Part shown: one piece after another, positions 8,863 through 21,516 of the stretch
How positions within the stretch are numbered: position 1 is the stretch's first letter
Layout of the letters: the number at the start of each line of letters is the position of its first letter
Source: Novosphingobium sp. PC22D
GTDB taxonomy: Bacteria > Pseudomonadota > Alphaproteobacteria > Sphingomonadales > Sphingomonadaceae
Length of the DNA: 64,000 bases
Assembly: GCF_002556635.1 (NCBI RefSeq)
Contig: NZ_MWMO01000002.1
Coordinates: 62,001 to 126,000, forward strand
Reading direction: 5' to 3'
Notes under the pieces: generated by a model
Databases searched by the model: none
What the model was told of the DNA's origin: nothing
Seen by the model: only the letters and a program-made list of their open reading frames with translations
Made by a program: the position numbers and the translations under genes

Positions 8863-9999
8863 TCATGCGATGACCTTCATTCGGTCAGCAGCTTCAGCGA
8901 TGCACTGTAGCGCCATCGCGATCTCGCCCTTGCAGGTCGTCGGTGCCGTACTAAGACGAACGACCTCGGCGGCTTCATTCGCATCGAGTCCCATCGCACG
9001 GAGAACGTGGCTTGGTTCGGGAATTCCGGAAGTACAGGCCGAACCGCGCGCCAAGGCCACGTCAGGCTGCAGAAGAGCAACGAGCCTCTCCGCATCAACA
9101 CCAGGTATCCTGACGCAAAGGTTGCCAGGGTGGCGGTCTTCGCGATTACCGATCGTCTCCATTTGAGGGAACAGGCTTTGCAGCCCCGCTTCCAGTTCCA
9201 GCGTCAGGGATCTCCATTCGGCAACAGCACGATCATCGGGTAGCAGCCGGCATGCTTCGCCGAGGCCCGCGCACAATGGGGTCGGAAGGGTTCCAGCGCG
9301 CAGACCACCTTCCTGATCACCGCCATGTATCAATGGTTGAAGCCGGGACCTCACCTCGCGACTAACATAGAGAGCGCCGATACCTTTGGGGCCAGAAGCC
9401 TTGTGCCCTGACAGACTGAGGAAATCGACACCAAGCTCCAAAACATCGATCGGCAGCCAATAAAGCGCCTGCGCAGCATCAGTATGTAATAGTGCTCCGG
9501 CGGACCGACATAGCTGAGATATCTCCTTGATTGGCTGGACAACGCCCATCTCGTTGTTCACGAGCATTATGGACACAAGCAGGGTTTGATCGTCTACCAA
9601 CTTGGAAAGCCTGTCGAGATCGACCCGTCCTTCACGATCGACAGGAGCAACCACCAGTTCAGCTCCCTCGCGAGCCACCTCTCTTGCCGGCGCAAGGACG
9701 GCCTTGTGCTCAATGGCGCTTACGATAACTTTTTTCCGATTCGGGTCAGATCGCGTCAGCCCCCGTATCGCGAGATTGTTCGCCTCCGTGGCGCCGGAAG
9801 TGAATATGATCTCATCGGCATCTGCGTCGACAGCATGCGCCACATTATTGCGAGACGCTTCGATCGCATCGGCAGCAGTCCAGCCTGCCGCATGGTCCGC
9901 GGCGTGAGGATTTGCATAGTGCTCGGTGTAATAGGGCTGCATCGCAGCGACGACCTGGGGATGGGTCGGCGTGGATGCCTGATGGTCCAGATAGATCAC
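8863..9999 (-). CDS. sspA: Cysteine desulfurase of the phosphorothioation system (SspA-like)
   Basis: A PLP enzyme that removes sulfur from L-cysteine and would pass the persulfide to SspD for DNA backbone modification. The start is set at the GTG at 9999 (VIYLDHQASTPT...) with a GGGAG site 6 nt upstream; the open frame continues upstream without a better start. The 378 residues contain the PLP lysine K200 in SLSGHKASGPKG and catalytic C322 in ARGSACTSG, both intact. It resembles IscS/NifS, but its position, divergent from the sspBCD-like genes, argues for SspA rather than housekeeping IscS. A shared 130-bp intergenic region holds two palindromes. Confidence 0.85.
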   Translation of the reverse strand: MIYLDHQASTPTHPQVVAAMQPYYTEHYANPHAADHAAGWTAADAIEASRNNVAHAVDADADEIIFTSGATEANNLAIRGLTRSDPNRKKVIVSAIEHKAVLAPAREVAREGAELVVAPVDREGRVDLDRLSKLVDDQTLLVSIMLVNNEMGVVQPIKEISQLCRSAGALLHTDAAQALYWLPIDVLELGVDFLSLSGHKASGPKGIGALYVSREVRSRLQPLIHGGDQEGGLRAGTLPTPLCAGLGEACRLLPDDRAVAEWRSLTLELEAGLQSLFPQMETIGNREDRHPGNLCVRIPGVDAERLVALLQPDVALARGSACTSGIPEPSHVLRAMGLDANEAAEVVRLSTAPTTCKGEIAMALQCIAEAADRMKVIA

Positions 10000-10054
10000 G
10001 CTCACCTCCCGTTGTTCTCTTTGCGTTCCACGAACAAAATGCACAAGACACTAG

Positions 10055-10115
10055 CACTGGTGATTGTCACCAGTGACCCTACTCGCTATCATCACTGGTG
10101 AATTTGTCCAGTGAT
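10055..10115. promoter_or_regulatory. Two palindromic operator-like sites between sspA and sspB
   Basis: Site 1 (10055-10075) is a perfect 9-bp-arm palindrome, CACTGGTGA-TTG-TCACCAGTG. Site 2 (10091-10115) has perfect 8-bp arms, ATCACTGG and CCAGTGAT, separated by 9 nt. Both share the half-site TCACTGG/CCAGTGA. They lie in the only shared upstream region of the divergent ssp genes, so they may bind a dimeric regulator that controls both transcripts. The regulator is not identified. Confidence 0.6.
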
Positions 10116-10130
10116 AGGGAAATGGGTGGG

Positions 10131-11111
10131 ATGCGAAGCCTTTTGGACCGCGACGACATCAAGCTGCAGGTGGCCGGACATGAGACCTTTCCCTGCCGAT
10201 ATGGGTGGCTAAAGAAGTCTTACGACGCCGTTTGTGAAGAATTGGCAGTCGAAGATGAACAGCAACAGCATGCTTTTTCCCCAAATGCAGGGATAGGAAA
10301 GTTCGGTGTTGGCAAGAACATGGTCGCTTCGATGCGGCATTGGTCACTCGCCTGCGGAGTACTTGTGCCACAGGGGGAGCGGGTGGGACGGCTCGAATTG
10401 CTGGAGCCTACAGCACTAGGCCATAGAATCTTCGGTGGAGGTGACCCCTATCTCGAGCTTCCGGCTTCTCTCTGGCTTCTTCACTGGCGGCTCGTTGCAA
10501 GCCCTGGGCGGGCCACGACTTGGTATTACTCCTTTAACGAATTTAACGATGCGATATTCACCAAGGATACCCTTGCTGCCCGTCTCTGGGCGAGACTGGA
10601 GGAACTGCGAGAGGTTGGTCGTCTGGCGAACAGCCGGATAGCGAAGAACACGGTCGATAGGGACGCCGAATGCTTTGTTCGCACCTATGTGACCAAGACT
10701 TCGAGGCGAGGAACGATCGAGGATGGTCTCGAAAGCCCGTTCGCTGAGCTTGGGCTCATTGCCTCGATGGCGGGAGGCGCGTTGCAGTTCCGCCGGGGAC
10801 CGAAGCCTTCGCTGCCCGATGAAGTCTTCGCATTCGCTCTTGTAGAGTTTTGGCGCTCGCAGTTTTCCACGCGCGGTTCGCTCTCCCTGGAGACCATCGC
10901 CCATGACCCTGGCTCACCCGGACGAGCATTCCTTCTCGACGAGGATTCCCTAGTCGAGCGTCTAGAGCGGATTGAAGAATTCACGTCCGCTTCGCTGGTG
11001 TGGGACGAAGGCGGCGGATTGCGGCAGGTGTCTCGTCGCAAGGAACTCGACCGAATTGATGCAGACGGCCTCCTCAACCCGCTTTTTGACATCCTGGAGA
11101 AGGCGGCATGA
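10131..11111 (+). CDS. sspB: DUF4007 protein, SspB-like DNA nickase
   Basis: In single-strand phosphorothioation systems SspB nicks DNA so that sulfur can be inserted. The protein begins with the family hallmark VAGHETFPCRYGWLKKSYDA (residues about 14-33) and carries FGVGKNMVASMRHW (about 58-71), the DUF4007 core. The start is placed at the ATG at 10131 because AGGGA lies 10 nt upstream. The in-frame GTG at 10098 falls inside the second palindrome, and the ATG at 10122 has the AGGGA directly against it. It overlaps sspC by 4 nt (ATGA). The length, about 326 residues, is normal. Confidence 0.85.
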   Translation: MRSLLDRDDIKLQVAGHETFPCRYGWLKKSYDAVCEELAVEDEQQQHAFSPNAGIGKFGVGKNMVASMRHWSLACGVLVPQGERVGRLELLEPTALGHRIFGGGDPYLELPASLWLLHWRLVASPGRATTWYYSFNEFNDAIFTKDTLAARLWARLEELREVGRLANSRIAKNTVDRDAECFVRTYVTKTSRRGTIEDGLESPFAELGLIASMAGGALQFRRGPKPSLPDEVFAFALVEFWRSQFSTRGSLSLETIAHDPGSPGRAFLLDEDSLVERLERIEEFTSASLVWDEGGGLRQVSRRKELDRIDADGLLNPLFDILEKAA

Positions 11112-14100
11112 GCAAGACTCTCTCTGATATCACTCGTGTCCGTCGCCGTTTCCAACGCTCCATCCGTGTGGGTGATGATGCTGGTGTTGCTGAGGGCTTC
11201 ATCTGTACTGCTACCGCAGCGCAGGCGCTCGAAACCACCATCGAGCATGTCTCCGCGCTCGGTCATGGGGCCTTCACTTGGACCGGCCCCTATGGTTGCG
11301 GAAAGTCGAGTCTAGCGGTTGTACTTGCCGCTCTGCTCGGGCCAACCGGGCCTTCTCGCGACGAAGCGCTTGAAGTACTCCCCGCAGAACTCCGCGAGCA
11401 GATCGTCACGAAAATGGGATGGGAACCGCAAGGTTGGACCACTCTCTCGATCGTCGGCTCGCGCTCAGATGCGTCTTCGGTCCTTACTTCCGCGCTCGAT
11501 GAAGCGGGCATCAAGAAGGGGCGTGGACCGATCGAGCGCCTCGTCGCCGAAGCCAAGCGCGGAATCGGCACCCTGCTTGTCATCGATGAGATGGGCAAAT
11601 TGCTCGAACATGCTGCCTCCGAAGGGGGTGACGCATTCTTTTTCCAGGAATTGGCCGAAGCAGCGTCGCGCTCGGATGGCCATCTGGTGGTGGTCGGTGT
11701 GCTGCATCAGGCTTTCGATGACTACGCCTATCGGCTTGCACGCGAGACCCGCGAGGACTGGCTCAAGATACAGGGTCGATATGTTGATGTGCCGCTCAAT
11801 CCGACTGGCGAAGAGCAGATCGAATTGCTTTCCCGTGCGATAGAGTGCGACACGCCGCCAAAAGCAATAGCGGGCATATCGGAAGTCGCCAAAGCGATTG
11901 GTGGGGCGCGCGGCGGTTCTGATGCGGCGGAGCGCCGTCTCGCGTCATGCTGGCCGCTCGGGCCGGTGGTCGCGTGCCTGCTCGGGCCGCTGTCGAGGCG
12001 CCGGTTCGGACAGAACCAACGAAGTCTCTTCGGCTTCCTCGGATCCGCCGAACCGTGTGGATTTCAGGACTTCCTCAGCTCGACACCTGTGAAGGGAGCG
12101 GCGGCCTACGACTGCGACTGGTTGTGGGGCTATCTCAGAGCCAATCTCGAGCCATCGATCATGGCGTCTCCGGACTCACATAGGTGGTCGCTCGCGCTCG
12201 ACGCCATCGAACGTTCGGAAGTCGCCGGCGCAAGCAAGCCCGAACTCTCCGTCTTGCGAGCAGTCGCACTCTTGGACCTTTTCCGAGATCGCTCGGGACT
12301 GGTTGCATCCACCGAGATTCTTGCTGCCGCTCTTCCCGATCTGAAGGAAGAGGAAATCGTTGCTGCGCTCGAGGAGCTAAAGAGAAGGTCGGTTGTGATC
12401 TTCCGCAGGCACCTCGGCGGCTTCACCCTCTATGCCGGCTCTGATTTCGACGTCGAGCAAGCACTGGAAGAGGCACTCGGCGAAGTCGTTGGATGCGATT
12501 TTTCCAAGCTTGGCGGAAGCGGTGTTCTGGCCCCCATTCTGGCCAAGCGCGAATATCATGAGACTGGTGCAATGCGCTGGTTCGAGGTGGACATTGCAAC
12601 TTTAGCCGATGCGCAGAAGCGGATTTCAAGTTATCAAGAGGGACGAGGCTCCTCTGGATTGTTCCTACTCCTCGTGAATGAGGATGGCGAAAGTCCGGCT
12701 CAAGTGCGGCGGGTGCTTGACGGGCTGGAGAAGGAAGTTGGCGACCGGCCCATCGCAATTGGCCTGTCGAGTGACAGCTATATGCTTCGCGAACTAAGCC
12801 GAGAGCTAATCGCTCTCGAACGGGTCCAAGCGTCACGCCCCGAACTGAAGGGAGATGCTGTCGCACGCAGAGAGGTCGCGAGCAGACTGGTACGGGTTGC
12901 CGGAGAACTCGAAGACCGGATCCGCCATGGCTTCTCGACCATCTCCTGGCGGATACCGGCGCTTGCTTCGGACGAGATCGGCATTGCTGGAAAGGTCAAG
13001 GATCTCTCCGTCATCGCATCTCGCCTGGCAGCCGAGCTGTATTCGAAGGCTCCGCGCATCCGCAACGAACTCGTCAACCGTACGAAGCCATCTTCGAACG
13101 CGGTCGCGGCCACACGAGCTTTGATGAACGCGATGATTTCGGCAGCGGACGAGCCCAGCCTCGGGATCCAGAAGTATCCGCCTGAGAAGGGACTATATGT
13201 CTCGCTTCTCGAAACCACAGGACTTCACGCCGCAGATCGAAGTGGCGCGCTGTCCTTGCGCGAACCGAAGAACGATTCCGCCAATCTTCACGCCCTTTGG
13301 GAGGAGGCCGATCAGCTCGTAGAGAAGGCGGGACCAGACGGTATCGGTTTGGAGAAACTGTTCGATGGTTGGCAGGCCCGACCCTTCGGCACGAAAGATG
13401 GCCTCCTGCCCATTCTTGGGCTCGCCTATCTGCTCACGCGGCGCGACACTCTCGCGCTATACCTCGATGAAAGCTTCTGCTCGGACATAAGCGATCTGTT
13501 CGTAGACAGGCTGCTCCAGGAAGCCTCGAGCATTCGTTTGCGGTACAGCGAGATATCCAAGCGCGACGCAGCCATCCTGAAGGAAGTGGCCGGTGTTCTC
13601 GAAGGACTGACAGGCGATGAGATTGTGGCGGCTGAGCCGCTATTGGTTGGCAGGAAACTCGTTTCCCTGGTCATGGAGACGCCGGGCTGGGTAAGGCGGA
13701 CTGCGCGCCTTTCTCCTTCCGCCCGAAAGGTCCGCGATCTCGCCATGACAGCACACGATCCGAACAAATTCATGCTCGATGACATTCCGTCGCTAGTGAG
13801 TTCGGCAGGAAAGCCAGAGCAGGTTGCTCGGATATTGAAGGAAGGGCTCAACGAAATCTCCGAGGCCTATCCTGAAATGCTAGCCTCATTGGAGAAAGAT
13901 CTGCTGAGGGAACTGCGCGTCCAGGGGAAGCAGGGTCTCGCAAACCTGCGCGCCAGGGCGGAGAGGGTCACAGGGATCACAGGCAACTTCCGGTTGGATG
14001 CGTTCGCGACCCGCCTTTCCTCATTCGACGGCAGTATGGACGTTCTCGAAGGTCTCGCCAGTCTAGCGGCGAACAAGCCGCCGCGGGATTGGGTCGATCG

Positions 14101-14449
14101 AGATGTGGATGCCGCGCGGATCGAACTGGCTGCTCTGGCCCGTGATTTCCTGCGGGCGGAAGGGCTAGCCCATGTTGCTGGTCGCGAGCAATCGCGCTTT
14201 GCGCTCGCCATCTTTATGTCGGACCCAAAGGGCGCCGGCGTCTTAAGACCGGAGGTCGAACTTGACGCAGGAGAGCTCGATCAAGCGCGGGCGATCGCCA
14301 ATAGCCTCCGCGAAAGAATCTCTGCGGGCGTTTCCCGGGATGTGGCGATAGCTGCTGCTGCCGAACTGGCTTCACTTTTGGCGCAGGAAGACAAGGTTGC
14401 TGAGCCGGAGTCGTGTTCTCCGATCGTGGCGACGGGAGGAGTTTCGTGA
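11108..14449 (+). CDS. sspC: SspC-like ATPase of the phosphorothioation system
   Basis: A 1,113-residue ATPase in the position of SspC, the motor subunit required for single-strand phosphorothioate modification. A Walker A loop GPYGCGKSS lies at residues 60-68 and a Walker B LLVIDEMGK at about 156-164; the remainder is mostly helical with no further domain that I recognise. It is coupled to sspB by an ATGA overlap and to sspD by a GTGA overlap at 14446-14449. The assignment rests on the gene order sspB-sspC-sspD and on the P-loop. Confidence 0.82.
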   Translation: MSKTLSDITRVRRRFQRSIRVGDDAGVAEGFICTATAAQALETTIEHVSALGHGAFTWTGPYGCGKSSLAVVLAALLGPTGPSRDEALEVLPAELREQIVTKMGWEPQGWTTLSIVGSRSDASSVLTSALDEAGIKKGRGPIERLVAEAKRGIGTLLVIDEMGKLLEHAASEGGDAFFFQELAEAASRSDGHLVVVGVLHQAFDDYAYRLARETREDWLKIQGRYVDVPLNPTGEEQIELLSRAIECDTPPKAIAGISEVAKAIGGARGGSDAAERRLASCWPLGPVVACLLGPLSRRRFGQNQRSLFGFLGSAEPCGFQDFLSSTPVKGAAAYDCDWLWGYLRANLEPSIMASPDSHRWSLALDAIERSEVAGASKPELSVLRAVALLDLFRDRSGLVASTEILAAALPDLKEEEIVAALEELKRRSVVIFRRHLGGFTLYAGSDFDVEQALEEALGEVVGCDFSKLGGSGVLAPILAKREYHETGAMRWFEVDIATLADAQKRISSYQEGRGSSGLFLLLVNEDGESPAQVRRVLDGLEKEVGDRPIAIGLSSDSYMLRELSRELIALERVQASRPELKGDAVARREVASRLVRVAGELEDRIRHGFSTISWRIPALASDEIGIAGKVKDLSVIASRLAAELYSKAPRIRNELVNRTKPSSNAVAATRALMNAMISAADEPSLGIQKYPPEKGLYVSLLETTGLHAADRSGALSLREPKNDSANLHALWEEADQLVEKAGPDGIGLEKLFDGWQARPFGTKDGLLPILGLAYLLTRRDTLALYLDESFCSDISDLFVDRLLQEASSIRLRYSEISKRDAAILKEVAGVLEGLTGDEIVAAEPLLVGRKLVSLVMETPGWVRRTARLSPSARKVRDLAMTAHDPNKFMLDDIPSLVSSAGKPEQVARILKEGLNEISEAYPEMLASLEKDLLRELRVQGKQGLANLRARAERVTGITGNFRLDAFATRLSSFDGSMDVLEGLASLAANKPPRDWVDRDVDAARIELAALARDFLRAEGLAHVAGREQSRFALAIFMSDPKGAGVLRPEVELDAGELDQARAIANSLRERISAGVSRDVAIAAAAELASLLAQEDKVAEPESCSPIVATGGVS

Positions 14450-15279
14450 GTAGGCAACGACACGTCCTGGGCCTCTCGGGAGGCCGAGATAGCGCCGCAC
14501 TTGCTGTCCACATGGCCCAGACGCGGCCGGACATCGAGCTGGAGTACTTTTTCACGGACACGGGCAAGGAGCTGCCCGAGGTGTATGAGTACCTCGGTCG
14601 CCTAGAGGGTTTTCTAGGGAAGCCGATCGAGCGGCTTAATCCCGACCGCGACTTCGATTTTTGGCTCCGCCAATACAAGTCATTCCTACCGAGCCCGCGG
14701 ACCCGGTGGTGCACAAGGCAGTTGAAGATCCGTCCTTTCGAACAATGGCTCTGGCCTGCCCTGGATGACGGCGACGAGGTCGTGAGCTACGTCGCGATAA
14801 GATCCGACGAGAACTACCGCGAGGGCTATTCCTCCACTCACCCCAACCTCTCGGTGTTGCTTCCTTTCAGGGAGGAAGGAGTCGACAAGGCGGGTGTGAT
14901 TGACATCCTCGAGGCGAGCGGTCTCGGACTTCCTAGCTACTACGAGTGGCGGTCACGTTCGGGCTGTACCTTCTGCTTCTTCCAACAGAAGATCGAATGG
15001 GTCCGTCTGATGGAGCGTCACCCCGAGAGCTTCGAAGAGGCGAAATCCTACGAGAAGAATGCGATCGAACACGGTTCGCCCTTCACTTGGAGCCAGGGGG
15101 AATCCCTGGAAGATCTCGCGCGGCCAGAGCGCGTGGAACAGATTCGGGAAGAACACCGCAAGCGTCTGGAAAGAGCGAAGGCTAAGCGAGTCCGCAATCC
15201 GCTGCGATCAGACGATAGCGAGATTGATCTCGACGAGCTCTACGGGCAGGCGAAGGTTTGCTTGGCCTGCCACAAGTAA
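14446..15279 (+). CDS. sspD: SspD/DndC-like PAPS-reductase-family sulfurtransferase
   Basis: An ATP-pyrophosphatase-type enzyme that would activate the DNA backbone and deliver sulfur. The start is the GTG at 14446, which overlaps the sspC stop (GTGA) and has GGAGGA 6 nt upstream; a frame opening at 14413 is inside sspC. The 277 residues show the PP-loop LSGGRDS (10-16), RWCTRQLKIRP around C89, and two cysteine pairs, CTFC (174, 177) and CLAC (272, 275). DndC proteins carry an Fe-S cluster on similarly placed cysteines, so a cluster is likely here. It is the last gene of the rightward operon, followed by a hairpin. Confidence 0.86.
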   Translation: MSRQRHVLGLSGGRDSAALAVHMAQTRPDIELEYFFTDTGKELPEVYEYLGRLEGFLGKPIERLNPDRDFDFWLRQYKSFLPSPRTRWCTRQLKIRPFEQWLWPALDDGDEVVSYVAIRSDENYREGYSSTHPNLSVLLPFREEGVDKAGVIDILEASGLGLPSYYEWRSRSGCTFCFFQQKIEWVRLMERHPESFEEAKSYEKNAIEHGSPFTWSQGESLEDLARPERVEQIREEHRKRLERAKAKRVRNPLRSDDSEIDLDELYGQAKVCLACHK

Positions 15280-15328: not shown

Positions 15329-17488
15329 TCAGATCACGTGCTCGAGATCGTAGGCCGTAAGGATCGGCCGCAGGATCTGATAAGCTTCTGCGCTGTTCAG
15401 GGAGAGGTTTGAAAATTCGGCGACCCGCTTGAGTTCGGATTTTACCAGCTTACGTGCATGCCCCGCCGCATCTTCGTAGCCCTCGGGCAGGACTACGATG
15501 AAATCATGGATGGTAGCGCTGTCCTTGCCGGGTGACTTGCGCAGGATGCGCCCACGCCGCTGGATGAACTGCCGGGGGTCTCGGGAACTCGCAAGGATGT
15601 ACGCGGTACTGCAGGCCGGTACATCGATGCCCTCGTCGAGGCACTTGATAGCGACCATTGCATCGATCAGGCCAAACTTGAAATTGGTGAGGATCGAGTC
15701 CCGCTCCCGACGCGGCTCTCTCGATGTGAAACGCGAGATGCGCCAGCCAAGCCGGTCGAGTTGCTGACTCACGACTTCGATCTGTCGCCCCTCGAGAATC
15801 TCGTCCTCTTCATCGGCGGGATCGGTCTCGACCGTGCCATCCCCGCAATAGAACAGCGTATGGTTCTGTGGCCGCTTACCCGCCAGCACGCTTTCAAGAG
15901 CAGGCAGCTTGTTCACCGCCGACGCTATGACGCGGGCCCTCCGCATCAAAAGGGCCGTCAGGCCTTGGCTTGGCTTGGAACCAGCCGACTTCTCCCGAGC
16001 GAAATGTCTGGCAATTTCATTGGAGAGATCGGCGAATTCGTTCGCTTCGTCGAGCGTGAGCTCCACGATGTGCGGGTGGTACTCATACGGCGTAAGAACC
16101 TCGTCCTCGATCGCCTGCCGTAATGTGTAGCTGAAGACTATGTCTCCATAGTATTCTGTGAGGCGCCGGTTACGCTCCTCATCGAGATAGTGGTGAGGAG
16201 TGGCCGAAAGGCCGATCCTATACTTTGCGTTTTGCGGCAGGAAACCGGCATAGCTTTCGGACGAATGGTGGTGACACTCGTCCCCGATCCATAGGAACCG
16301 GTTTTCCGGTATTCTTGAGATTGCGCTCTGGAACTCCGGAGATTTCATCGTCCGGTTCACGACCACGATCGCTGCAAAGTTGATCGCCGCCATTTCGACA
16401 TCGTGGATGGTCTGGCGAAGATCGTCTTCCCATTCCGTCTTTGAGACGTAGCAGCGGATCGGCTCGATCCCAAAGATTTCCAGTATCTCGCACCATTGGT
16501 CGGCGAGGTTCTGGTAGGGCACGGCGATTACAACGGTCAGACCGGGAATGCTCTTGGCCAGCTGTACTACGGCGTAGCAAGCGGTAATGGTCTTGCCTGC
16601 ACCGGTGGCTAGATCGAAGACGCCTACGAACGCGCCTTTCTCGCGCCAGGCATTGAGTGCGTCCCTTTGGTGGGCGCGTATCTCGAACTTGTAGCCGCCG
16701 ATCGTCTCGGGGAGCCTCGGTCCTCTTTCCTTGGGAGTTACGTCTAATTCGTCTTCCTGACTTTTGAGCCGTTTCAGAATGGCGAGTTCACGCGCAGGAT
16801 CTGGTGGAGCATCCATTCGCTCGGCGACTTCGAGAAGGCGGTCTTCGAGCGCGGTGGGAACGTCGATGACCGCCGTACCGCGACTTTTGTTCTCCCAGAG
16901 GCGCTCGAATGCCGCCCGGTGTTCGGAGAAGTAGGGTTCGAGTTCAAGCTTCCAGGTGGGGAAGACGTCTATGGATTCGTAGTTGTGGGTCGGGAGCAGG
17001 GCCTGAGCGCTTTCGTTCGCTGACCCCGCGAAGACGAACGCATCGCCCGCCTCGTCGGTAATAATCCCGACCTTGTCGTGATACATTCCGTGTGGCCGGA
17101 GCGCCACGCGTATGTCCAGCCTTCCCTCGGCCACAAGCCACGCCAAGGTCTGGAAACGCTGTTCGAATACCTCCCCTTGCGCTTCCTCGATCGCGGCGAG
17201 GAACTGCTCGCCGATCTCCTCAGAGATCCGCTTCTGGTCTTCGCCCCGCTTTATAGCGGCTATGTCGCGAGCATCGGTAAACGCCCCGACGATGAGGCGC
17301 ATTCTTCCACCGTTCGCGGTGAAGGTGCTGAGCGCTTGGGCAGCGTATGTGATCGTTGAGCTCGAGAAGAAGCCCACGGCCCGGTCGTAGCGAACCGCGG
17401 CAGACAGCGCGGGGAAATAGAAATCCTCCAGGATGTTGTCCCGGTCGGATTTGTAGACCCCCTTGGCCTGGATGTTCATTAGCGCCAT
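15329..17488 (-). CDS. PLD-type nuclease fused to a DEAD/DEAH (SF2) helicase, putative phosphorothioation-linked effector
   Basis: A 719-residue fusion. The N-terminus (about 20-200) is a phospholipase D-like nuclease with HGMYHDK (H137, K139) and GSANES; the spacing from K to the next D is one residue longer than the usual HKD motif. From about 265 on it is an SF2 helicase: DLATGAGKT (292-300), DECH (403-406), GLSATPHHY and a C-terminal QFIQRRGRILR arginine-finger motif. It is the last gene of a leftward operon with the DndD-like ATPase and the small Dnd-associated protein. With the convergent sspBCD-like genes this fits an SspFGH-type restriction module that damages DNA lacking phosphorothioates. 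I cannot say which of the F, G and H letters applies. Confidence 0.8.
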   Translation of the reverse strand: MALMNIQAKGVYKSDRDNILEDFYFPALSAAVRYDRAVGFFSSSTITYAAQALSTFTANGGRMRLIVGAFTDARDIAAIKRGEDQKRISEEIGEQFLAAIEEAQGEVFEQRFQTLAWLVAEGRLDIRVALRPHGMYHDKVGIITDEAGDAFVFAGSANESAQALLPTHNYESIDVFPTWKLELEPYFSEHRAAFERLWENKSRGTAVIDVPTALEDRLLEVAERMDAPPDPARELAILKRLKSQEDELDVTPKERGPRLPETIGGYKFEIRAHQRDALNAWREKGAFVGVFDLATGAGKTITACYAVVQLAKSIPGLTVVIAVPYQNLADQWCEILEIFGIEPIRCYVSKTEWEDDLRQTIHDVEMAAINFAAIVVVNRTMKSPEFQSAISRIPENRFLWIGDECHHHSSESYAGFLPQNAKYRIGLSATPHHYLDEERNRRLTEYYGDIVFSYTLRQAIEDEVLTPYEYHPHIVELTLDEANEFADLSNEIARHFAREKSAGSKPSQGLTALLMRRARVIASAVNKLPALESVLAGKRPQNHTLFYCGDGTVETDPADEEDEILEGRQIEVVSQQLDRLGWRISRFTSREPRRERDSILTNFKFGLIDAMVAIKCLDEGIDVPACSTAYILASSRDPRQFIQRRGRILRKSPGKDSATIHDFIVVLPEGYEDAAGHARKLVKSELKRVAEFSNLSLNSAEAYQILRPILTAYDLEHVI

Positions 17489-17496
17489 CGAGCGCC

Positions 17497-17970
17497 TCAG
17501 AATGATATTGCTGCTAAATCCGGCTCCGCCTGCGCGGGCACGAGATAGCCTCTTTCCCGAAGCATGCTCATCAAGGCCCTGTCAGGATATTCCCCGCCTT
17601 CACGCAGAAGGTGGTCTTTGATGATGGCAAGCCCCCCGTTAGCATATTCTTCGAAGATCTCGGCGCAGCGCCCCTCTTCCCCCTCGCGAAGGATGTCGGG
17701 ATCCTCGGTCTCGGCAAGCGCGATCAGGTAGATGAGATTCTCTGCGTCACCGCGCTCGAACTGTTGATAGGAGACATCTTCGACACCCTGCGAGCGATCG
17801 AGCGGGAGACGCCGCTTCTCCGAAAATCCAAGAAGAGCTGCGAAGCAGAGCAACTCACGGATAGTCGGGAAGAGCCTCCTTTCGGAACCCGGAAGCGGTA
17901 TGGCTGCCAGCTTCTGGACATACTCCTCGTAGATCTTGGACCGGTTGATGTTTGGTGCTCTGGCGGTCAT
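17497..17970 (-). CDS. Dnd-associated small protein (dnd_assoc_4-like)
   Basis: A 157-residue soluble protein that looks like the phosphorothioation-associated protein 4 family. The signature is a basic N-terminus followed by RRLFPTIRELLCFAALLGF and RRLPLDRSQ, then a helical segment with the GDAENLIYLIAL stretch. It has no visible catalytic motif and is probably an adaptor. Its start overlaps the stop of the DndD-like ATPase (ATGA at 17967-17970), and its own stop is 8 nt from the helicase start, so all three are one transcript. The family call is from memory of the motif. Confidence 0.68.
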   Translation of the reverse strand: MTARAPNINRSKIYEEYVQKLAAIPLPGSERRLFPTIRELLCFAALLGFSEKRRLPLDRSQGVEDVSYQQFERGDAENLIYLIALAETEDPDILREGEEGRCAEIFEEYANGGLAIIKDHLLREGGEYPDRALMSMLRERGYLVPAQAEPDLAAISF

Positions 17971-19988
17971 CGAACGATCTCCTCGATCCGGGTGCCATCG
18001 GCCTCTTGATCGAACAGAGCAACGGCATAGTCTTTCCCGTTGAACTGACGGGTCTCGCCTTTCTTCCCTTCTCCGGAAGCACGGTTGGTCCGAACGAGGA
18101 CGTATTCCTTCCCTACTCTCGCACGCAGCACGTCAATCACAGCGTTGTTGGCCTGCGAACCCGAGACCATCAGTACCACCTGACTGGCCATGCGTGGCAC
18201 ATGCTCGCCCGTTGTCTCGCGATAGCTGTCATCGAGCTGGCCGAAGGGAGAGTCCAGAACGAGGGGGGCGACCGTGCCACGCAGCAGTCGGTGATCCTGC
18301 GCGTTCTGACGAAGTCGGGCGTACTCGACCAGCGCAGCCGTGAATGCGAGACCGAGTAGCTGGTTTTCGCCACTGGATTTGGGGAGCTGCGTTCCCTCTT
18401 CATTGACGAGAGCCACTGCGTATTCGTCGGTCAGTCTCAGCTTAAAGCTCTTCCGGGTGGTGGCCTGAAGGACTTTGCTGATCTGCGAGCGAAGGATCTT
18501 TCGAGCATCCTCTTCTTCTTCGACGAGTTCAGCTTCGAGCCGCTCCTTGAGCCGTTCGCACAGTTCGTGACGTCGGACGAAAATTCTCGCATCCTCGTCG
18601 TTCTCAAGCAGCTTGTTGAGTTCGCGCTCCTTGTTCGCCTTGGACGCCTCGGAACTGCGGAGATTGTTTTCCAGGGCGCCGATCTGCCGGTTTATCCCAT
18701 CGAGTTCGCCTCGCAGCTCATTCCGCCGCCGCTCGCGTTCGGCGATCTCATCGAAATCGATGCCAGAGAGCTTGTCGGAGATCTCCCCAAGTTCTGCTTC
18801 AATGGCGCTGATCTCGTGTCGAGCTTCGGCTAGTCGCTTGTTAGCTGCGTCCAACCGGCCTGGCGCTTTTTCCCTTTCTCGCTTGAGTTCTTTAAGGGTG
18901 GAGCGAACGCTCGAAAGTCGACTGCGCAACGTCTTGTTTGCTGCCTTCTGTAGGAGACTTCGAACCTTCTCATATTCGGTGGAACCCTTTTTCAGCTCCG
19001 TCCCGCAGATGCATTCTTCCATCTCCAGAATGTCCTGAACGAACTCTTCGTTGTAGGGCGAAGGGATGCGGCCCTTCACATCCTGAGCCTCGAGATGATC
19101 GAATGTCTTTTCGGTAATGCGAGAGGAGACGAGGAAGCGGCCATTGTCGCCGAGCCACTTCAGCAACTCGTCTTGTGCGCTCGCTGCTCTGGTGATAGCA
19201 CGCTTGAGCGAGTTGTTCGCCCTGTCGCGGCTGGCCTGGAGTTCTCGCGCAGCGGCCGAGTTACGCAATTTGGCTTCAATGTCGGCAATCTGCTGTTGCT
19301 TCTGTTCCGCTTGCCCTTTCAGACCGTCGAGTGCTTCCCTGCCGCTCTTGAGCTGGTCCGTAAGCCGGTCGATCTCATTCGAGAGGACTTCGATCTGGTC
19401 GGTCGCTTTGGCTTTAGGCATTTGCCGCCGATAGTACGCAGCCGTCTCTTCAAGGTCCCCGATCGCTGTCTCGATTAGATTGCATCCGAGAATATCCTGG
19501 ACTGCCTTGCGGATTCCGCGCCGGTTCTCCTCGCCGAGGAAGACCTCTGCATGTTCACCGTCGAAAAGAAAGTGTCCCGCCATGGTCTTCGGTATGACCG
19601 TGTTGATAAAGCTATCGGGGTTGTCGATCGAAACGCTGTGGCCATCATCGATCCGCATGATTGAGAACTCACGACCGCCCATGGTGCCGTTGCCGTGGAA
19701 GCGACGGGCACGATAACGCTTGTCGTTGTGCTCGAAGAGGACTTCTACATAGCAGGAATCTCTCCCCGCGGCCTTGGCGTCGTGGTTAACGAGGTCCTGC
19801 TTGCGTTCAAACTTGGCAGTAGTCGTGCCGTAGAAGCACCAAAGCATGGCGTTTAGAAGAGTGGTCTTTCCGACGCCGTTTTCCGCGTGAATCAGAGTAA
19901 CGTTTTCATCCGGATCCATCGAGAATTCGATGGTATGCTCGCCATGGAAGCAGCGAAAATCCTTCAGAGTGATTTCATCGAGCCACAT
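17967..19988 (-). CDS. DndD-like SMC/Rad50-type ATPase, putative effector subunit
   Basis: A 673-residue ABC/SMC-type ATPase with Walker A ENGVGKTT (36-43) near the N-terminus, a long coiled-coil middle and, near the C-terminus, the signature SSGENQLLGLAFTAAL and Walker B LVLDSPFGQLD. A CICGTEL motif (C326, C328) sits between the coiled-coil arms in place of a Rad50 CxxC hook. DndD of the Dnd system has the same plan. Here the gene is not with sspBCD but leads the convergent effector operon, so it more likely serves restriction than modification. An AGGAG site 7 nt upstream supports the ATG at 19988. Confidence 0.78.
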   Translation of the reverse strand: MWLDEITLKDFRCFHGEHTIEFSMDPDENVTLIHAENGVGKTTLLNAMLWCFYGTTTAKFERKQDLVNHDAKAAGRDSCYVEVLFEHNDKRYRARRFHGNGTMGGREFSIMRIDDGHSVSIDNPDSFINTVIPKTMAGHFLFDGEHAEVFLGEENRRGIRKAVQDILGCNLIETAIGDLEETAAYYRRQMPKAKATDQIEVLSNEIDRLTDQLKSGREALDGLKGQAEQKQQQIADIEAKLRNSAAARELQASRDRANNSLKRAITRAASAQDELLKWLGDNGRFLVSSRITEKTFDHLEAQDVKGRIPSPYNEEFVQDILEMEECICGTELKKGSTEYEKVRSLLQKAANKTLRSRLSSVRSTLKELKREREKAPGRLDAANKRLAEARHEISAIEAELGEISDKLSGIDFDEIAERERRRNELRGELDGINRQIGALENNLRSSEASKANKERELNKLLENDEDARIFVRRHELCERLKERLEAELVEEEEDARKILRSQISKVLQATTRKSFKLRLTDEYAVALVNEEGTQLPKSSGENQLLGLAFTAALVEYARLRQNAQDHRLLRGTVAPLVLDSPFGQLDDSYRETTGEHVPRMASQVVLMVSGSQANNAVIDVLRARVGKEYVLVRTNRASGEGKKGETRQFNGKDYAVALFDQEADGTRIEEIVR

Positions 19989-20880: not shown

Positions 20881-21516
20881 ATGGAACACGTCAGAGAGGA
20901 GCTCGATCGCCTGATCCAGCAGCGACGGCTCGGATATTCCTCGATCTCGCGGATGATCGGACGAAACTCGTCCTACATTCAGCAGTTCATCAAGCGCGGC
21001 TCGCCGCGAAAGCTGGATGATGATGACCGGCGCACGCTTGCCAGCTTTTTCGGGGTCGACGAGCAAGTGCTTGGCGGACCCCCCGCACCCATGCGTGACG
21101 GGTTGATCGAAATTCCCGTGCTCAATGTTGATGCATCGGCGGGCTTTGGAGCGATTGCCGAAAGCGAGACCGCCCATACCCGCTTCGGTTTCGACGAACG
21201 CTGGCTTGCCAGGCTCACCAGAGCAAAGAGTGCTAGCCTTTCGATCATCCATGTCCTGGGCGACTCTATGGAGCCGACACTCAGCGATAGCGACGAGGTG
21301 CTGGTCGATGCGTCGGACCAGGGTTCGCGGCTACGTGACGGCATCTACGTCCTACGCGCCGACGATGCGCTGGTGGTCAAGCGCGTGACGCTCAAGCCAG
21401 GTGGCCGCAAGATCACCATCAGCAGCGACAATTCGGCCTATCCCAGCTGGGACGATGTCGACCGGTCCGAGATCCAGGTGGTCGGCCGTGTCATCTGGTT
21501 CGGACGCGCTGTCTGA
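20881..21516 (+). CDS. XRE/S24 LexA-like repressor
   Basis: A 211-residue self-cleaving repressor of the CI/LexA type. The N-terminal HTH (about residues 10-60, SSISRMIGRNSSYIQQFIKR) is followed by an S24 peptidase domain. The nucleophile Ser is in HVLGDSMEPTLSDSDEVLVD and the general-base Lys in ADDALVVKRV, so the catalytic dyad is intact. Such repressors respond to RecA-ssDNA and in ICEs such as SXT release transfer genes after DNA damage. A control role for this ICE is inferred from location only. Related repressors also occur as ordinary sphingomonad chromosomal genes. Confidence 0.82.
   Translation: MEHVREELDRLIQQRRLGYSSISRMIGRNSSYIQQFIKRGSPRKLDDDDRRTLASFFGVDEQVLGGPPAPMRDGLIEIPVLNVDASAGFGAIAESETAHTRFGFDERWLARLTRAKSASLSIIHVLGDSMEPTLSDSDEVLVDASDQGSRLRDGIYVLRADDALVVKRVTLKPGGRKITISSDNSAYPSWDDVDRSEIQVVGRVIWFGRAV

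Follow-up and report, generated by a model that had tools for sequence, protein, structure and literature searches.

A conserved CTGG-N9-CCAG operator upstream of sspB suggests autoregulation of ssp operons through their own target trinucleotide

The window analyzed here, a stretch of 64,000 nt from Novosphingobium sp. PC22D (GCF_002556635.1, contig NZ_MWMO01000002.1, positions 62,001–126,000, forward strand), contains an Ssp (SspABCD) DNA phosphorothioation system, with SspA, SspB, SspC and SspD all matched by PADLOC. The cysteine desulfurase gene sspA (8863–9999; PADLOC SspA, 4.4e-131; Pfam Aminotran_5) is encoded on the minus strand, and the other three genes are encoded on the plus strand. 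The first of these, sspB (10131–11111; Pfam DUF4007, 2.9e-79; PADLOC SspB, 2.9e-97), encodes a winged-helix DNA-binding protein, for which we propose an additional role as autorepressor. It is followed by sspC (11108–14449; PADLOC SspC, E 0, 1211 bits), an AAA+ ATPase according to the literature, which matched no Pfam family and also matched the BrxC model in the PADLOC scan, and by the PAPS-reductase-like sspD (14413–15279; PADLOC SspD, 3.7e-136; Pfam PAPS_reduct), the mechanical ORF start of which overlaps sspC. Two restriction genes are located downstream on the minus strand, one pbeA-like (15329–17488; PADLOC PbeA, 1.5e-254) and one pbeC-like (17967–19988; PADLOC PbeC, E 0), followed on the plus strand by a gene for an S24 peptidase-family repressor (20881–21516; Pfam Peptidase_S24). 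The mechanical ORFs of sspA and sspB extend to 10044 and start from 10098, respectively. Comparison with relatives suggests that sspA starts with the GTG at 9999 and sspB with the ATG at 10131; the latter was preferred to the upstream ATG because that codon is followed by a stop codon in the relative L013. With these starts, the sspA/sspB intergenic region is therefore 131 bp long.

The initial annotation had described two palindromes of the type TCACTGG/CCAGTGA in this region, one with perfect 9-bp arms and the other with perfect 8-bp arms and a wider spacing. Both palindromes are indeed present. The arms of the first are located at 10055–10063 and 10067–10075 and are separated by 3 nt; the arms of the second, at 10091–10098 and 10108–10115, are also as described and are separated by 9 nt. 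The wider spacing, however, only reflects how far the arms match, because the inner bases of the second palindrome are unpaired. The half-site common to all arms is CACTGG; the full TCACTGG is present in only three of the four, as the first palindrome has GCACTGG on its left side. Both palindromes can thus be described as CACTGG-N9-CCAGTG, with one geometry and a center-to-center distance of 38 bp: operator 1 at 10055–10075 (core CTGG-N9-CCAG at 10057–10073), which is kept in relatives, and operator 2 at 10093–10113 (core at 10095–10111).

The extended site is specific to this locus, as exactly two perfect matches to CACTGG-N9-CCAGTG exist in the genome of 5,024,522 bases, namely operators 1 and 2. 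With up to two mismatches, the whole genome contains 137 matches, fewer than the 204 found for the backwards control pattern. By itself, the half-site TCACTGG shows no enrichment across the window (8 occurrences versus 6.5 expected), and the core CTGG-N9-CCAG is represented by 90 copies in the genome compared to 82 for its control. The core is thus information-poor genome-wide, and flanking contacts or the promoter context must add specificity.

To what extent the sites are conserved was analyzed for 59 DUF4007/SspB loci obtained by dereplication of 74 loci at 80% SspB identity; the counts exclude loci from the same genome (L001–L010 and L028) as well as short duplicates of loci for which longer flanks had been obtained. 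CTGG-N9-CCAG was found up to 150 nt upstream of the sspB match in 36 of the 59 loci, and the other spacings from 0 to 20 nt in none of them, with the exception of a single locus for 8 nt. For the shorter motif TGG-Nk-CCA, 39 loci had the 9-nt spacing and one to six loci each of the other spacings. Among 4352 combinations of four-base inverted repeats and gaps, CTGG-N9-CCAG ranked first with its 36 loci; the best non-concentric combination reached four. Shuffled upstream sequences yielded a mean of 0.14 loci with the motif and a maximum of two (200 rounds; these shuffles, like those of the start sites below, preserve base composition only), and the control windows at the sspC and sspD starts and in gene interiors yielded none (0/57, 0/47, 0/57, 0/57 and 0/59). 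The site is present even in relatives with an SspB that is only 36–50% identical and with surrounding intergenic DNA that appears unrelated by eye. The hosts are alpha-, beta- and gammaproteobacteria, and the operator is also found on plasmids and on one contig labeled Chloroflexi (L018), a label that may be wrong because L018 is a MAG. Altogether, the window sites share the fixed 9-nt spacing, the promoter position and the presence across the SspB clade that characterize the conserved ssp operator TGG-N9-CCA.

Additional loci were drawn with queries from the CTGG clade when the pattern had already been fixed, and 200 nt upstream of sspB were scanned instead of the 150 nt of the earlier scans. 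The site was detected in 12 of 14 new loci (in L134 at −72). Five of the 14 were 85–100% identical in SspB to earlier loci (L125, L130, L131, L133 and L134); when loci with at least 80% identity to an earlier SspB were removed, 7 of 9 had the site. The repeats L120, L128 and L129 were not counted among the 14, and L106 and L107 were repeats from another draw. The two later loci lacking the site (L127 and L136) fall outside the operator clade described below. A Vibrio-type SspB query gave a lower yield, with the site in only two of the eight new loci examined, as TTGG-N9-CCAA in L108 and as CTGG-N9-CCAG in L111, and neither form in L110, L112–L115 and L119; left out of this draw were L109 (a repeat), L116 (the same gene as L119) and L117 and L118 (fragments at contig ends).

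The variant TTGG-N9-CCAA is present in the Vibrio-type loci L068, L090 and L108 and twice, at a distance of 55 bp, in L089. Both arms are altered symmetrically, and TGG-N9-CCA is retained, as expected for a site that is bound by a protein. On quick trees of SspB with one support measure, the operator states require 3 changes over 57 rows, compared to a mean of 18.3 after shuffling (two rows of less than 200 aa, L027 and L051, had been left out). In the 78-row tree, a single clade of 54 rows encompasses 48 loci with the CTGG form, four with the TTGG form and two without a site (L110 and L114), and none of the 23 valid rows outside of this clade has an operator (L134 excluded). As far as such trees can be trusted, operator presence follows one SspB clade. 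Two origins of the TTGG variant are not claimed, as they appear in the 57-row tree, whereas the variants form one group in the 78-row tree. According to the initial annotation, the interpretation would be refuted if related loci kept the genes and not the palindromes; this combination was looked for, and relatives of the same SspB clade were found to keep both. The initial observation is right but understated: the operator is widely conserved.

In the window, the predicted promoter of sspBCD is intertwined with the two operators. The predicted −35 element TTGTCA (10064–10069, plus strand) is located inside operator 1, the predicted −10 element TATCAT (10087–10092, plus strand) directly precedes operator 2, and operator 2 spans the predicted transcription start; TTGTCA-17-TATCAT has two mismatches to the consensus. 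Similar arrangements were predicted in the relatives. For loci with a divergent sspA, 15 of 18 have a sigma70-like TAnnnT −10 element together with a matching −35 element, with the −10 element beginning 7–13 nt before the sspB-proximal core (shuffled mean 1.2, maximum 5). Of the 11 loci with sspA upstream on the same strand, five have the operator in the spacer between −35 and −10 (0.66 on average and at most three in shuffles). When no sspA is nearby, the two geometries did not convincingly exceed the shuffles: the first was predicted in 4 of 10 loci (1.1 on average and at most four in shuffles) and the second in 3 of 10 (1.5 on average and at most six). The distance between paired operators varies from 32 to 84 bp across loci; thus, cooperative looping is not indicated. 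Taken together, comparative sequence analysis gives good support to an operator with a conserved place, spacing and half-site before sspB that abuts or overlaps the predicted promoter in most divergent loci, and it supports the earlier view of the palindromes as putative regulatory sites of the common sspA/sspBCD promoter.

In some of the codirectional loci, the operator coincides with the end of sspA. In six of the 11 representatives (L041, L072, L075, L077, L078 and L101), it lies exactly over the last sspA codons (ACT/GCT GGN NNN NNN NNC CAG stop), and the operator also covers the last sspA codons in L071 and L100. The sspA stop codon directly follows the operator core in these loci, and in some of them a TAG could double as the start of the −10 element. 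In L040, L053 and L086, the operator also falls within sspA, but in a different register or at a greater distance from the stop codon; in L034, L073, L076 and L102, it is downstream of sspA.

Which protein binds to the operator was approached by counting gene families in the 51 of the 59 loci with at least 9 kb of sequence, for ORFs of at least 50 aa and genes within about 5–10 kb. Of the operator-bearing loci of this size, all 35 encode SspB, SspC and SspD, and 25 encode SspA, while any other non-shadow family among the 40 top families listed is present in at most seven of the 35. Ssp aside, the listed families that recur most are ORFs on the opposite strand of ssp genes, an assignment made from example coordinates, and large genes that probably encode effectors. 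A small dedicated regulator gene that accompanies the operator was not found among the families listed for the flanks of these 35 loci (ORFs of at least 50 aa). The S24 repressor (20881–21516), which the initial annotation had named as a candidate regulator, was rejected as binder because it is not co-conserved with the operator: tblastn matches were confined to the window, to the near-identical locus L011 (partial, at the locus end) and to L096, where the homologue comes without the operator. HipB, the second candidate named there, gains no support from the family count, in which no listed non-shadow family other than sspABCD recurs in more than seven of the 35 loci. The earlier statement that no regulator gene is next to the palindromes is probably wrong as well, as one of the core Ssp proteins is the most probable binder and sspB itself adjoins the sites.

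As an observation on its own, the S24 homologue of L096 is 74% identical; its gene precedes sspA by about 470 bp, shares its strand and belongs to an ssp cluster that lacks the operator. Five further non-operator loci (L091–L093, L112 and L113) have a conserved small ORF with an SGRIVIE-like motif directly upstream of sspB; it is about 62–78 aa long, although the mechanical ORF of L093 comprises 118 aa. Three of the five were scanned; the ORFs of L112 and L091 are weakly similar to RelB/ParD antitoxins (one to each), below the curated cut-offs, and that of L092 gave no match. In L099, an HTH_37 protein is encoded upstream of sspA. As a mere suggestion, some relatives without the operator may use a dedicated regulator instead.

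Among the core proteins, the literature describes SspB as a triple winged-helix protein with a relationship to the DNA-binding domain of FokI (PMC10853773), as the winged-helix DNA-binding component of the system (PMC12839542), and as a dimer in the crystal (PMC9240713). The structural model of the window SspB (pLDDT 85.9) matched the SspB crystal structure 6juf_B with a Z of 29.8. Lower values were obtained for BrxA-like 3bhw (8.4), the winged helices of repressors (about 8) and FokI (7.5), and a value near 8 is weak evidence when taken by itself. BpuJI, which is named in PMC9240713, was absent from the 50 structural neighbours listed. The model thus predicts a modification component with a DNA-binding fold, as in bifunctional enzyme-repressors, although the repressor-domain Z of about 8 is weak by itself.

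We regard the palindromes as two copies of a conserved ssp operator, TGG-N9-CCA (usually CTGG-N9-CCAG), and consider it fairly probable that SspB represses its own operon through paired target trinucleotides; binding and repression by SspB are inferred. The phosphorothioate (PT) modification motif of Ssp is 5′-CCA-3′ according to the literature (PMC9345386; PMC9646914). The CCA in each operator half is thus the system's own modified trinucleotide, which suggests self-regulation through its own target sequence. By our count, CCA or TGG would occur in about 6% of random tetranucleotides, which makes the agreement between half-site and PT motif modest evidence when taken by itself. Mechanistically, a dimer of SspB, a target-recognition winged-helix protein, would bind the two inverted CCA(G) half-sites and would then exclude RNA polymerase. 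As operator 1 covers the predicted −35 element and operator 2 the predicted start point of sspBCD, bound protein would shut the sspBCD promoter. SspBCD would be made only until enough SspB is present, and SspA probably likewise through operator 1. Motif scans revealed no operator copies near the pbe restriction genes; thus, the feedback would determine how much modification, and not how much restriction, takes place. Motif matches outside of the region upstream of sspB, which had been considered as operators at restriction-gene promoters, showed no repeated position by eye, and most were taken as chance.

Presence and absence cannot separate SspB from SspC or SspD, because all three are co-inherited. 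That another core Ssp protein or complex, i.e., SspC (BrxC-like), SspD, SspBC or SspBCD, is the repressor appears rather unlikely, and the 35 of 35 co-occurrence of SspC and SspD with the operator is as favorable to it as to SspB. In the case of SspC, the match to the BrxC model is of interest, since BrxC is reported to have winged-helix domains (PMC12839542), whereas SspC is predicted to form rings around DNA (PMC10853773). For the group as a whole, it counts against this alternative that SspB is the reported DNA-recognition component and that its crystal dimer fits a site with two-fold symmetry (PMC10853773; PMC9240713). In search of specificity residues, we compared the two TTGG lineages: residues changed in both were found in 5 of 72 conserved columns of SspB and in 7 of 139 of SspD, and the same replacement residue occurred in one of the five SspB columns and in five of the seven SspD columns. 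The higher number of shared replacements would speak for SspD as binder, and the comparison of the two proteins did not favor SspB; it would be slightly against SspB, leaning if anything to SspD. To our knowledge, SspD is an enzyme for which no DNA-binding part is known, which counts against it.

Many operons of mobile elements are under the control of host regulators, and an unlinked or host-wide transcription factor could bind the operator instead of SspB. Such a factor is compatible with the gene-family count, which covered genes within about 5–10 kb and ORFs of at least 50 aa. However, the operator accompanies ssp across proteobacterial classes and plasmids, no non-Ssp gene family goes with it among the families listed for the 35 loci, and in its own genome the core is not enriched elsewhere (90 versus 82 for the control), the extended site being confined to this locus. 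We thus regard a host factor as unlikely. Very improbable is a non-regulatory site, at which SspBCD would preferentially enter, nick or modify the DNA and which would adjoin the promoter by coincidence: it would account for the two inverted CCA motifs, which are the PT target, but not for the placement on promoter elements in two geometries or the absence from the control windows. The least probable explanation, an RNA hairpin in the leader that controls translation or attenuation, was rejected because its interior pairs are poorly conserved (the four pairs inside N9 are complementary in only 24–58% of 55 sites, and those outside the core in 27–64%), and the spacing is fixed at 9 nt and the predicted start point of sspB is preceded by the distal operator copies, even though the sspB-proximal site is at the predicted mRNA 5′ end in divergent loci and some flanking pairs are complementary above column expectation ((4,12), 32 of 55 versus 21; (−1,17), 35 versus 22; (6,10), 28 versus 19), an excess that is expected from an RNA stem, but equally from a symmetric protein site.

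Autorepression by SspB would have parallels. DndB of the Salmonella dndBCDE operon likewise belongs to a PT modification system and is autoregulated through two palindromes in its own promoter; it differs in being a dedicated regulator with the site TACG-N10-CGTA, which lacks the GAAC/GTTC target (PMC4507180). The ssp site TGG-N9-CCA, in contrast, contains the CCA target of its own system. DndB was not matched among the eight window proteins scanned with PADLOC, and neither TACG nor CGTA is present within 10000–10130. Palindromic operators are also known from defense operons under BrxR/WYL-domain or C-protein control. These systems use a separate regulator gene (PMC9240713; PMC12707154), and none was found accompanying the ssp operator among the families listed for the 35 loci. 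In M.EcoRII, M.SsoII and M.Ecl18kI, a modification component represses its own gene, as proposed for ssp; these are methyltransferases with a fused repressor domain (PMC12707154), whereas in ssp the recognition subunit of a sulfur-modification complex would act on an operator built from its recognition motif. In CfrBI, too, the modification target is embedded in inverted repeats, which are located where two divergent promoters overlap, but there methylation itself switches RNA polymerase (PMC12707154). For the related BrxA/DUF4007 proteins of BREX, a regulatory role is only said not to be excluded (PMC12839542).

No report on ssp regulation, autoregulation or this site was found in the literature searched (coverage without the 2020 Nature Microbiology SspABCD-SspE paper). 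Within the autoregulation of DNA-modification systems, an operator built from the system's own target trinucleotide would be unusual. If true, autorepression would add a second function to SspB, which is reported as nickase and recognition subunit. With an operator that is conserved throughout most of a large SspB clade, a PT trinucleotide in its half-sites and no linked dedicated regulator found, the question of how the level of ssp modification is set becomes directly testable. A further possibility, which we consider doubtful, is that the operon senses its own PT state: the CCA of each operator arm would itself be a target of SspBCD, phosphorothioation or nicking there would alter the binding of SspB (or RNA polymerase), and the promoter would respond to the extent of sulfur marking in the genome. 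Such a promoter, if true, would help to account for the incomplete modification of CCA sites, of which about 10–15% are reported as modified in V. cyclitrophicus FF75 (PMC8053081).

Several individual loci deserve mention. No phage-borne SspB was confirmed in viral_contigs with this query. In L023, the operator is at the center of a much longer palindrome upstream of sspB with 15-bp arms (GCGGCCAACTGGTGA/TCACCAGTTGGCCGC), and L114, which has no N9 site, contains a long palindrome of another spacing upstream of sspB, TTGGATGCAGT-N7-ACTGCATCCAA. In L066, a plasmid of Thermomicrobium roseum, CTGGTGAGAGGGACCAG at locus position 9405 precedes the annotated start of sspB by 524 bp and might be a distant operator. 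The DUF4007 genes of the Streptomyces plasmids L083 and L084 are located near N-6 DNA methylase genes, without sspC or sspD matches in the flanks examined. Lastly, the PC22D genome itself encodes a second sspB (L095, G000:C54:196064-196945), only 48% identical to the first and with its own ssp cluster, in which a distance of 56 bp separates the operators CTGGATGATGGCTCCAG and CTGGATGATCAATCCAG; with operators at both clusters of the same genome, cross-talk between the two ssp loci is possible.
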